A DNA stretch of 64,000 nt, taken from NCBI GenBank assembly GCA_029571985.1, contig JAKQVC010000161.1, positions 1-64,000 on the forward strand. Direction: 5' to 3'. The notes beneath the pieces are model-generated. The model was not told where the DNA came from, ran no database searches, and saw only the letters and a program-made list of their open reading frames with translations. The position numbers were made by a program, and so were the translations under genes. Position 1 is the stretch's first letter. Every line of letters starts with the position of its first letter. Positions 1 to 44,836 of this stretch are shown here, one piece after another. This DNA comes from Bacteroidota bacterium (lineage in GTDB: Bacteria; Bacteroidota; Bacteroidia; Chitinophagales; BACL12).

Positions 1-904
1 TACTTCCTGTGCACAATCGGGAGATGCTATTTTAACCCAACCGCAATTATATGGCACAACAGATGAACTCATGCAAAAGCAGTTGGCCGCCTGGAATATC
101 ACTATCGTCAGGGCTGATTTAAATAATGCTGATGCAGTAGAACGTATATTTAAGAAAAATAAAAAAATCAAACTTGTTTATCTCGAAACACCATCTAATC
201 CAATGATGGAAGTGGTAGATATTCAGCTTGTTGCCACAATTGCACATCAGTATGGATGTAAAGTAGCTGTTGATAATACATTTGCATCTCCATATTGTCA
301 AAAACCTTTGCAACAGGGTGCTGATTTAGTTGTGCATAGCGCTACTAAATATTTAAACGGCCATGGCAATGGATTGGGTGGAGTAGTGGTAGGGAGAGAT
401 AAACGCTTTATGCAAGAGCATGTGTGGACTAAAATAAAATTATTAGGTGCAAATCACAATCCTTTTGAAAGCTGGTTATTGCTGCAGGGGATGAAAACCT
501 TAGAAATTCGAATGCAGCGTCATTGCGATAATGCTGCTGCGGTTGCCGCCTGGTTAAGTGCACATGATCGCGTAAAGAAAGTGTTGTATTGTGGTTTACC
601 TGATCATCCGCAGGCGAACATTATCGCAAAGCAAATGACAGATTATTCAGGTATGCTGAGTTTTGAATTAAAAGGTGGATTGCAAGCCGGAAAACGCTTA
701 TTATCACGCGTTAAATTATGCCAGATGATCACCACCCTTGGAACGCTGGATACCTTAATTCAACATCCCGCCAGTATGACACATGTTAACGTACCAAAAG
801 AACGCCGCCTTGCATCCGGAATTACCGACGGCCTCGTGCGCATGAGCATTGGTATCGAAAATATTCAGGATATATTAAATGATTTAGAATATGGACTTAA
901 ATGA
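1..904 (+). CDS. Trans-sulfuration PLP enzyme (cystathionine gamma-synthase / methionine gamma-lyase family), 5' end missing
   Basis: The frame is open from base 2, so the gene starts upstream of the window; about 300 residues are visible of a family usually near 380-400. The motif SATKYLNGHGN holds the lysine that binds pyridoxal phosphate, and the C-terminal stretch HPASMTHVNVPKERRLASGITDGLVRMS is typical of the Cys/Met metabolism PLP family. These cytosolic enzymes make or break C-S bonds in cystathionine, homocysteine or methionine. The sequence alone does not separate synthase from lyase, and no methionine-biosynthesis neighbour is visible to help. The gene ends 590 bp before the convergent fabD; that spacer is filled by repeats. 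No rho-independent terminator of ordinary size is seen after its stop. Confidence 0.85.
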   Translation, partial: TSCAQSGDAILTQPQLYGTTDELMQKQLAAWNITIVRADLNNADAVERIFKKNKKIKLVYLETPSNPMMEVVDIQLVATIAHQYGCKVAVDNTFASPYCQKPLQQGADLVVHSATKYLNGHGNGLGGVVVGRDKRFMQEHVWTKIKLLGANHNPFESWLLLQGMKTLEIRMQRHCDNAAAVAAWLSAHDRVKKVLYCGLPDHPQANIIAKQMTDYSGMLSFELKGGLQAGKRLLSRVKLCQMITTLGTLDTLIQHPASMTHVNVPKERRLASGITDGLVRMSIGIENIQDILNDLEYGLK

Positions 905-40200: not shown

Positions 40201-40827
40201 TCAGGGCACAATTTCAATTTTTGTCCCTTTTTTACAAACAGCATATAGCTCATCAATATGCGCATTTTTTAAAGAAATACATCCGAGCGTCCAATCCTGC
40301 CCTTCATCTATGAGTGCATCCATGCCTTCCGGCACCCCATGTATACCAATCTCTCCACCAATTGACGCATCTTTTGGAATTGTACCATCCTCTTTAGCCT
40401 GATTGTACTTTTCCCAACTTTCTGCTGTCGGATAATCTACCCACATAAATTTACTCCAACGGGCATGCGGATACAGATTGCGTAATTGAAACACACCCTC
40501 CGGCGTTTTTTGATCGCCTTCCATGCGTTTATCTCCAGTCGGATTCCCGCCTAAAACTACCGGATATGTTTTTATTATTTCGGTATCAATTTTTACCTGC
40601 AGAATGCGTTCGCTTTTATCGATATAAAGCCAGATCTGTGCCTGCTTTTCTCCATAAGGTTTCAGCAAACTGTCGAGCGGGGTATCCGGTGTGGCGTTGC
40701 GTAAGTGAGTTTGGGTCATGGTATCAGATAGTGCACCTGCTTGTGTATGGGCCGTGTTTTGATTGCACGCAAATATAAGTGTCGCCATAGTAACAAGTGC
40801 CGGGGTAAAGGAGAACAAGTTGCGCAT
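40201..40827 (-). CDS. L,D-transpeptidase (YkuD domain) lipoprotein
   Basis: The 208-residue protein has a lipobox LIFAC (C21) and a YkuD domain. The active site combines H163 (GEIGIHGVPEG) with C183 (DWTLGCISLKN), a variant of the usual SHGC(I/V)R(L/M). Such enzymes form 3-3 peptidoglycan cross-links or attach proteins to the wall in the periplasm. The substrate loop with PTGDKRMEGDQKTPEGVF is typical. It lies 53 bp after the helical-protein gene on the same strand. Confidence 0.9.
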   Translation of the reverse strand: MRNLFSFTPALVTMATLIFACNQNTAHTQAGALSDTMTQTHLRNATPDTPLDSLLKPYGEKQAQIWLYIDKSERILQVKIDTEIIKTYPVVLGGNPTGDKRMEGDQKTPEGVFQLRNLYPHARWSKFMWVDYPTAESWEKYNQAKEDGTIPKDASIGGEIGIHGVPEGMDALIDEGQDWTLGCISLKNAHIDELYAVCKKGTKIEIVP

Positions 40828-42356: not shown

Positions 42357-42468
42357 ACTGCATCAAATTTACGGCAATTGTAATAATCCCACATACGCAC
42401 ATTGGGACCTTACTGTAGGAATATTTTTGCAGGAAGATGCTCAAACCGGGCCCTGACCGGAGGCTTGT

Positions 42469-43041
42469 TTACACCATATTGGCCAGAAATATTTTTATCG
42501 CCAGCGCCAGTGCAATTACCCCAAAGAATTTTGTAATCGCGTGCAGACCTGTTTTACCTACCTTATCTTCTATCCAGCCGGTTGAACGCAAAACCACATA
42601 AATGATGACCGCATTGATAATAACGGCAGCCAAAATATTGGATGTGGCATACATACTCCGCATACTGATGAGTACGGTTAAGGTTCCGGCACCTACCAAT
42701 AATGGAAAGGCTATAGGCACTAAACTACCTGCATCACCGGCGTCAGGATTCGTTTTAAAGAAATGCATACCTAAAATCATTTCCAGGCCTAACAGGAATA
42801 TCACCACTGAACCGGCTAAAGCAAATGATTGCGTATCCAAACCTAATAAGCGTAAAATCGAATCACCTAAAAATAGGAAGGTGACCATGAGTACACCTGC
42901 AAAAACACTTGTTTTAACAGGTTGTAATATGATGCCTCTGCTTTTCATATTGATAATGGCAGGTACATTGCCCAATACATCAATAATGGCAAACAGGGTT
43001 AAACTAATTGTAAGAATTTCAGAAAACTGTAAAGAAAACAT
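42469..43041 (-). CDS. marC: MarC family integral membrane protein
   Basis: The 190-residue protein has six hydrophobic spans and the family pattern LFAIIDVLGNVPAI near the N-terminus, with IAFPLLVGAGTLTVLISM in the second half. It sits in the inner membrane; the transported substrate of MarC (UPF0056) proteins is unknown, and the old antibiotic-resistance link was withdrawn. Its upstream region is unusual: a leader of about 135 nt with a small reading frame and a terminator-like closing stem (43062-43153), behind a good promoter. Confidence 0.9.
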   Translation of the reverse strand: MFSLQFSEILTISLTLFAIIDVLGNVPAIINMKSRGIILQPVKTSVFAGVLMVTFLFLGDSILRLLGLDTQSFALAGSVVIFLLGLEMILGMHFFKTNPDAGDAGSLVPIAFPLLVGAGTLTVLISMRSMYATSNILAAVIINAVIIYVVLRSTGWIEDKVGKTGLHAITKFFGVIALALAIKIFLANMV

Positions 43042-43061
43042 AACCAGACTTTGAATACGTG

Positions 43062-43153
43062 AAAAAATAACAACCTACCGAACACTTGGGCGGAGTAGCC
43101 TCAACAATGTTGTCCGTGCCATGGGTATTCGTGAATACCAATGCTGTTGTTAT
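43062..43153 (-). promoter_or_regulatory. Structured leader RNA of marC (possible attenuator)
   Basis: On the marC strand, ATAACAAC (43153-43146) pairs perfectly with GTTGTTAT (43074-43067), which runs into a T6 tract. Inside are a 7-bp hairpin GGTATTC/GAATACC (43139-43124), a CAACA-A-TGTTG dyad (43112-43102) and a stem CTAC(T)CCG/CGGTAG (43098-43075). The closing stem plus T-run can act as a terminator whose formation depends on the inner part. It does not match a riboswitch class I know. Confidence 0.55.
43075..43122 (-). CDS. Putative 15-residue leader peptide MARTTLLRLLRPSVR
   Basis: The reading frame begins at an ATG one base after the 7-bp hairpin and ends at TAG just before the 3' half of the closing stem. 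It has four Leu codons (TTG, TTG, CTA, CTC) and four Arg codons (CGG, AGG, CGC, CGG) among 15. Such density and position resemble transcription-attenuation leader peptides. It is far too short for proof; conservation in relatives would decide. Confidence 0.4.
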   Translation of the reverse strand: MARTTLLRLLRPSVR

Positions 43154-43182
43154 ATATATTCAAAGTAAATTTCATCGCGTTA

Positions 43183-43213
43183 CAAAGATACATACAAAAA
43201 GTATGTCCTAAAA
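43183..43213 (-). promoter_or_regulatory. marC promoter with overlapping dyad
   Basis: TTTT (43213-43210), a 19-nt spacer and TATCTTTG (43190-43183) fit the Bacteroidota consensus. The inverted repeat CATAC-N5-GTATG (43191-43205) lies in the spacer, a good place for a repressor or activator. Confidence 0.6.
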
Positions 43214-43301
43214 GTTCCCGGTTTGAATACAGAATAGCGCTGAAGTCGTCAAACGCAACAGCAGTAAGCCTTTTGAGGCAAGCACTTCCGCTCCGGTCAG
43301 A

Positions 43302-43673
43302 TTAAAAATTCGTGAGAAGTAATACCGCCCAAGACCCCAAAATGAGCTCTAAAATCGCGATGTAGTAGGCATTATTCCCCGAAACGCCTTTTTGGAAAAT
43401 TGAAATCCATCGCCCTGCTACCACTCCGGCATAGATGAATACTGAAAAGAAAATACCTGCGTAGAACAAATCCGGATGTAATGCACATACGGCATACATC
43501 ACTGACCAGGCACCCTGCAAACCTACGTAAAGCGCAAAGTACTCAGAACGCCCATTGGTATTCAAAAATCCAATTCCCGAAAATGTTGCGGTAGATGTGG
43601 GTGAAATGGCACACCAAACGGCAAATATGGCGTAGATAACGGCGTTTAACCAAAGGTAAAATTCTGGAAGCAT
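43302..43673 (-). CDS. Four-helix membrane protein (DUF4345-like)
   Basis: The 123-residue product has four transmembrane helices with short loops (spans about 4-24, 45-65, 68-90 and 100-121). The GFLNTNGRSEYFALYVGLQGAWSVMYAV segment resembles DUF4345 proteins, whose role is unknown. It is on the same strand as marC, 260 bp upstream, but marC has its own promoter. A TACCTTTA box lies 14 nt before its ATG (43688-43695). Confidence 0.65.
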   Translation of the reverse strand: MLPEFYLWLNAVIYAIFAVWCAISPTSTATFSGIGFLNTNGRSEYFALYVGLQGAWSVMYAVCALHPDLFYAGIFFSVFIYAGVVAGRWISIFQKGVSGNNAYYIAILELILGSWAVLLLTNF

Positions 43674-44460: not shown

Positions 44461-44542
44461 ATGTGCGGAGGTGCGGAGGTGTTGACGTGCGGACGTGGGA
44501 ATGCATTGGTGTCGACGTGTCGACGTTCCGACGTGTCGACGT
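44461..44542. repeat. Octamer tandem arrays (ATGTGCGG-like and GTCGACGT)
   Basis: First five degenerate 8-mers: ATGTGCGG, AGGTGCGG, AGGTGTTG, ACGTGCGG, ACGTGGGA (44461-44500). After 10 bases come four more: GTCGACGT, GTCGACGT, TCCGACGT, GTCGACGT (44511-44542). The second family reappears inverted at 51660 and 51871. The remaining spacer to 44836 holds a small dyad (TCCGCCG/CGGCGGA near 44777) and CACACCTGCA repeats but no gene. Confidence 0.85.
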
Positions 44543-44836
44543 GGGGAATGCAGATGTGTTCGCCGTGCGGCGTATTTGTATGTGCAAGTGTGATAGTGGA
44601 AAACAGAAAACACCCATGACATTTGTTCCAACCTATACTTTCCAATCAAAACAAAAAGCAAGCTCCCTCTCCATCAAGGAGAGGGCGGGGGGTGAGGTTC
44701 AATAATAATAAATGGTTGAAATGAGAATCAATATCGCATTTATTGCATTTCACTTTCACACTCCCACACACAAATCCGCCGTCCGGCGGACCTCACTTGC
44801 ACACCTGCATTTCACACGTCCGCACACCTGCATTCA

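Follow-up and report, generated by a model that had tools for sequence, protein, structure and literature searches.

The window, a 64,000-nucleotide stretch of DNA from a Bacteroidota bacterium, carries on its minus strand a gene for a MarC family transporter that is preceded by a promoter and a short leader. The features of this locus were as follows.

43183 to 43213, minus strand: promoter, recognized from its sequence, with the −33 element TTTT (43213-43210), a 19-nucleotide spacer and the −7 box TATCTTTG (43190-43183)
43101 to 43175, minus strand: leader open reading frame (ORF) of 24 codons, MKFTLNIYNNSIGIHEYPWHGQHC followed by a stop, identified by translation and found in the same place in the relatives G001, G004, and G002
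43146 to 43166, minus strand: 5′ strand of a long-range helix, ACTTTGAATA (43166-43157) and ATAACAAC (43153-43146), identified by exact complementarity and lying inside the leader codons
43119 to 43139, minus strand: invariant core GIHEYPW, an identical peptide in four genomes
43075 to 43122, minus strand: 15-codon frame MARTTLLRLLRPSVR of the preliminary description, rejected as a chance frame
43048 to 43074, minus strand: 3′ strand of the helix, GTTGTTAT (43074-43067), directly followed by T6 (43066-43061), and TATTCAAAGT (43057-43048), at −33 to −7 relative to the marC start
42469 to 43041, minus strand: marC, encoding a MarC/NAAT family transporter (Pfam PF01914), the presumed regulated gene

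The product of marC matched PF01914 with an E value of 3.5e-27 and 95.6 bits (cut-off, 23.9), which places it in this family, and scored 69 bits against NCBIfam TIGR00427, under the cut-off of 99.2. MarC family transporters are widespread, their natural substrates are not established, and SnatA and a mutant MarC transport small neutral amino acids (PMC12003319). A close marC was searched for in 61 genomes, and the leader was compared in four draft assemblies of one family, i.e., the window's own genome (G000), its sister species G001 (public MAG Chitinophagales bacterium SSF59; marC 85% identical to that of the window), G004 (public MAG Chitinophagales bacterium ES-bin-175; 77%), and G002 (58%). 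The gene neighborhood of marC differs among G000, G004, and G002, so that the common partner of the leader is marC and not a gene order. In the same family, G003 and G005 (genus g3) had neither the leader nor a close marC; the sole MarC paralogue in G005 is a distant one (24% identity).

The promoter proposed in the preliminary description, TTTT-N19-TATCTTTG, was borne out at 43213-43183. In the alignment, GAACTTTT and TAnnTTTG were present in G001 and G004, and TAnnTTTG was present in G002. The leader start codon lies 7 nucleotides past the −7 box in the window and 4 to 8 nucleotides past TAnnTTTG in all four genomes, which makes the leader ORF almost leaderless. In Flavobacterium the TAnnTTTG box is located at −12 to −5 (PMC9723704), and by this measure the marC mRNA should begin 0 to 4 nucleotides before the leader start codon. 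The distance from TAnnTTTG to marC is 133 to 149 nucleotides in the family carrying the leader; in other families with TAnnTTTG near marC the box typically lies 4 to 22 nucleotides before the marC start.

Between this promoter and marC, where an upstream ORF regulator would be expected, the leader ORF was found on the same strand and at the same position in all four genomes of the family that have this marC. Its stop codon is 59 nucleotides upstream of marC in the window (45 to 60 nucleotides across the four genomes), and its length varies from 22 to 31 codons. The sequences in the relatives, each followed by a stop, are MKFTLNIYNNSIGIHEYPWTCKCHAC in G001, MKLTINIYFHSKGIHEYPWIASCYMACKQSA in G004, and VILLTIDMIHHASGIHEYPWHR in G002, the last with a GTG start. 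The spacing from the N-terminal segment [LF]T[IL][ND] to the GIHEYPW core is 10 residues in every case. Within the codons for GIHEYPW, all differences in all six genome pairs are synonymous and at the third position. Across leader codons 1 to 19, G000 and G001 differ at 7 codons, every one of them synonymous (chance of 7/7 synonymous, P = 4e-6 under equal substitution rates, where 17% of single-base changes in the ORF are synonymous, and P = 3e-4 with transitions only, where the share is 31%); this pattern and the invariant core indicate selection at the amino acid level. Conservation stops abruptly after Trp19, and the tails beyond it vary in length and sequence. Those of three members are rich in Cys and His (CxCxxC in G001, CxxxC in G004, and HxxHC in G000), and that of G002 is without Cys. 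As judged by these comparisons, the leader is almost certainly a real, conserved coding ORF, and the alignments show it to be kept for its amino acid sequence and tied to marC.

This frame (43175-43101) had been overlooked in the preliminary description, which proposed instead that marC may be switched by Leu- or Arg-tRNA supply, or by ribosome stalling, at a Leu- and Arg-rich peptide, MARTTLLRLLRPSVR (43122-43075). That 15-codon frame exists in the window and was not conserved in relatives. Its ATG (CC-ATG-G over Pro18-Trp19) exists only because the window has CCA for Pro18 before TGG; G004 and G002 have CCC at Pro18 and consequently have no ATG for this frame, and in G001 the frame is without a stop and reads into marC. 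Leu and Arg codons form no run in the ORF of the real peptide (MKFTLNIYNNSIGIHEYPW...), and tRNA switching by these residues was not borne out. The broader idea, that marC is preceded by an RNA switch and a leader peptide that is translated, was supported, with a different frame being the conserved one. The hairpin GGTATTC/GAATACC was also considered, either as an operator or as an RNA element under conservation, and was rejected: synonymous third-position changes break its pairs in two relatives, and it is therefore a by-product of the coding sequence. In G001 (L057 260-916) an ATG within the leader ORF opens the marC frame 28 codons 5′ of the conserved start, so that automatic annotation could assign a wrong MarC N terminus and hide the leader. 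An extended MarC N terminus was rejected, as a stop closes this frame in G000 and the extension is thus not conserved.

A conservation pattern, GGNATHCAYGARTAYCCNTGG, was written from three genomes, with G002 left out of its making. It matched 4 of 398 genomes of the order, each time upstream of marC, and the fourth match was the held-out G002. When 395 genomes of the class were scanned with the leader pattern, the only match was in the window's own genome. A stricter scan of the GTDB genome collection with S-x-GIHEYPW returned SSF59, ES-bin-175, and one match in Pseudomonas lurida, which was attributed to chance, lying antisense within a DNA ligase gene. When the order was searched with a profile, the four carriers had E values of 1e-13 to 3e-15 and the rest none better than 0.005; the weak matches in other families (L059-L062) were rejected, being out of frame or on the opposite strand in apparent longer coding regions, and none adjoins marC. 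At two loci with longer promoter-to-marC gaps (L022 and L031), an ORF resembling HEYPW was looked for and not found. In the genomes scanned, the GIHEYPW leader is limited to a small family of uncultured Chitinophagales. A search of the open-access literature found no paper on a marC leader peptide.

By energy alone, the fold of the leader is not unusual (−28.3 kcal/mol, z = −1.5; 15 of 200 shuffles fold equally well or better). Rfam gave no match at the gathering score across the window, nor at E = 10 for 42950-43320, and no terminator-like hairpin was found at 42400-43400. The closing stem of the preliminary description, ATAACAAC/GTTGTTAT and then T6, is present, with ATAACAAC (codons 8 to 10) exactly complementary to GTTGTTAT (−33 to −26 of marC). 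Upstream of marC in relatives this stem is kept within the genus only; the stem and T6 are absent from G004 and G002. A second long-range match, missed earlier, pairs ACTTTGAATA (codons 4 to 7) with TATTCAAAGT (−16 to −7), and the stem is thus part of a longer helix joining about leader codons 4 to 11 to the region before the marC start. The helix comprises 10 + 8 bp in G000 and 8 + 8 bp in G001, and the duplex was better than those with shuffled spacers (p = 0.004 and p = 0.033, respectively); in G004 the leader was instead found to pair, more weakly, with codons within marC (p = 0.0085, one among several pairings tried), and in G002 no leader-marC pairing was found (p = 0.42). Because several pairings were tried, these p values are indicative only. 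The marC start regions of G004 and G002 fold open.

Nucleotide conservation between G000 and G001 followed the helix. In the spacer, 17 of 18 paired positions were identical, versus 17 of 41 others (Fisher P = 1.3e-4). Nine of 10 codons were unchanged in codons 2 to 11, versus a marC-based expectation of 45.5% (P = 0.005), and no 10-codon window of marC equaled this conservation; in codons 12 to 18, outside the helix, 6 of 7 were changed at the third position (Fisher P = 0.004 versus codons 2 to 11). Codons 2 to 11 are thus constrained as nucleotides and codons 12 to 18 as amino acids, i.e., one part appears to be held as both RNA and peptide and the other as peptide only. No compensatory changes were seen in the helix between the two genomes (17 of 18 pairs unchanged and 1 broken). 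Pairing in the helix flanks T6 on both sides and extends to position −7 relative to the marC ATG, an arrangement that suits control at the level of translation better than a terminator. In Bacteroidota, translation starts without a Shine-Dalgarno sequence and RNA structure by the start codon tunes translation (PMC6847099).

Taken on sequence evidence, the leader most likely serves marC as a built-in switch that senses translation. That it regulates marC in cis is likely, and the fuller reading, a cis-acting, probably ribosome-stalling peptide that controls marC, has in our estimate a probability of roughly 0.5. Beyond the conserved peptide we infer stalling, a signal, and a direction of control, in the following form. 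When translation of the leader is unhindered or rare, the helix would cover the start region of marC, which would then be translated little. When a ribosome pauses at Pro18/Trp19 and a second one waits behind it over codons 4 to 11, the helix would be blocked, and marC would be translated; an early ribosome that masks these codons would likewise free the marC start. The sharp drop in conservation past Trp19 may mark the arrest point, at which Pro18 or Trp19 would sit in the peptidyl-transferase center. Our leading guess for the signal would be a small molecule, perhaps a MarC substrate, that is detected in the ribosome tunnel jointly with the nascent peptide. When folding was simulated with one ribosome stalled at codon 18, the helix stayed closed, and an early or queued ribosome opened it modestly (unpaired fraction of −35 to −1 from 0.33 to 0.50 in G000), the opening being less clear in G001 than in G000. 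As not all members have the helix, the primary element would be the peptide, and genera may differ in how it is coupled to marC, the candidates being RNA pairing, Rho access, or reinitiation. It is possible, if doubtful, that GIHEYPW represents a new class of arrest peptide that is short enough to work entirely within the exit tunnel, senses a MarC-linked small molecule, and controls a MarC family transporter from a near-leaderless mRNA. A dedicated sensing leader, if that is what lies here, would name the signal and thereby probably the MarC substrate, and it would add a new one to the small number of upstream regulatory peptides on record for Bacteroidota.

Compared with known systems, the leader appears to work like a leader-peptide (upstream ORF) regulator and to fit no SecM/RAPP, tRNA-charging, CruR, or Rfam class. 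SecM carries GIRAGP, and the G-I-x-x-x-P of GIHEYPW has the same spacing, a likeness noticed after the fact and taken as a lead, not as evidence. SecM, ApdA, and the RQH family are arrest peptides with RAPP/RAGP-like motifs (PMC10987492). The marC leader resembles them in being a short ORF that precedes the gene of a membrane protein, with conservation that ends sharply at a Pro-containing motif and a patchy distribution limited to families. It differs in that GIHEYPW lacks a RAGP/RAPP core (as defined in PMC10987492), matched no proven arrest motif with which it was compared, and precedes marC, not sec or yidC genes; at only 22 to 31 residues, the leader is, unlike SecM-type peptides, unlikely to be an exported monitoring substrate. 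Short upstream ORFs of Bacteroidota with a conserved C-terminal Pro share with it the phylum, the upstream position, and the Pro, but in those the Pro is the last residue before the stop and the downstream gene is another one, whereas in the GIHEYPW leaders Pro-Trp is followed by 2 to 12 variable residues. In Erm/cat translation attenuators, alternative pairing links the leader ORF and the downstream start region, as the helix appears to do here within the genus. The marC leader differs from them in that it has no Shine-Dalgarno sequence and the helix is not in all members; moreover, a queued ribosome would be needed, unlike in Erm/cat, because the presumed arrest site is downstream of the covering strand. 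TnaC is about 24 residues long and controls Rho-dependent termination. Small leader peptides of the TnaC type are described as sensing a metabolite in the tunnel (PMC3902921), and the likeness lies in a similar length, residues conserved along the whole peptide, and a downstream transporter gene; no sequence similarity of TnaC to the GIHEYPW leader was shown.

An unlikely alternative is that the product of the ORF is a small protein in its own right, such as a metal-binding peptide or a partner of MarC, that acts in trans and is merely cotranscribed with marC. The strong amino acid constraint across 17 to 19 residues, the abundance of Cys/His in three of the four tails, and the constant company of marC would all suit such a protein. 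A peptide this short and polar, however, is unlikely to be a membrane partner, its C terminus is unconserved and without Cys in G002, and the nucleotide constraint on codons 2 to 11 and their match to the marC start region would be left unexplained. Equally hard to favor is a leader that raises marC expression through ribosome loading at the 5′ end (reinitiation or mRNA protection) or through a Rho-blocking pause, with no RNA switch. The near-leaderless start right at the promoter is consistent with it, and it would also account for G004 and G002, which lack the helix; leaders have been proposed to boost expression through reinitiation (PMC4833913), and a Rho-blocking pause is described for CruR (PMC9426467). 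Yet the gap of 45 to 60 nucleotides is long for reinitiation, and simple loading does not require an invariant heptapeptide.

Classical transcription attenuation, in which the supply of charged tRNA (Leu/Arg in the frame MARTTLLRLLRPSVR, or His, Tyr, Pro, or Trp in the real frame) sets a terminator before marC, is improbable. Leader peptides are reported for amino acid operons in Flavobacterium (PMC9723704), and a stem followed by T6 is found in G000 and G001, but this stem has 8 bp with two G-C pairs only, which falls short of an intrinsic terminator, its pairing extends beyond T6, and G004 and G002 have neither such a stem nor T6. Moreover, the real ORF has no run of codons for one amino acid, and what is conserved is the peptide, not the codon choice. 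Very improbable is a metal-sensing leader in the manner of the copper-responsive upstream ORF CruR, a peptide of about 145 residues that conserves CXXC and RAPP (PMC9426467); in such a leader, nascent Cys/His would bind metal and release or cause arrest: CruR too is an upstream ORF controlling a transport gene, and the CxCxxC, CxxxC, and HxxHC tails supply Cys in some members, but neither CXXC nor RAPP is conserved in the marC leader, G002 has no Cys, and the Cys positions vary and all lie past the conserved core, i.e., past the likely arrest site of the stalling peptide that we favor.

Some further observations concern the surroundings of marC. Genes resembling L,D-transpeptidases lie near marC in G000 (window 40201-40827) and G001 (YkuD in both), and a different, longer L,D-transpeptidase-like gene, judged by eye, lies near marC in G002 (G002:C42, L063 5158-6852). 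Between the pseudouridine synthase and RNase R genes of the window, at 44463-44660, repeat-like short motifs with the frames RRHVGTSTRRHQ and HVDTSERRHVDT were seen, possibly an intergenic tandem repeat.
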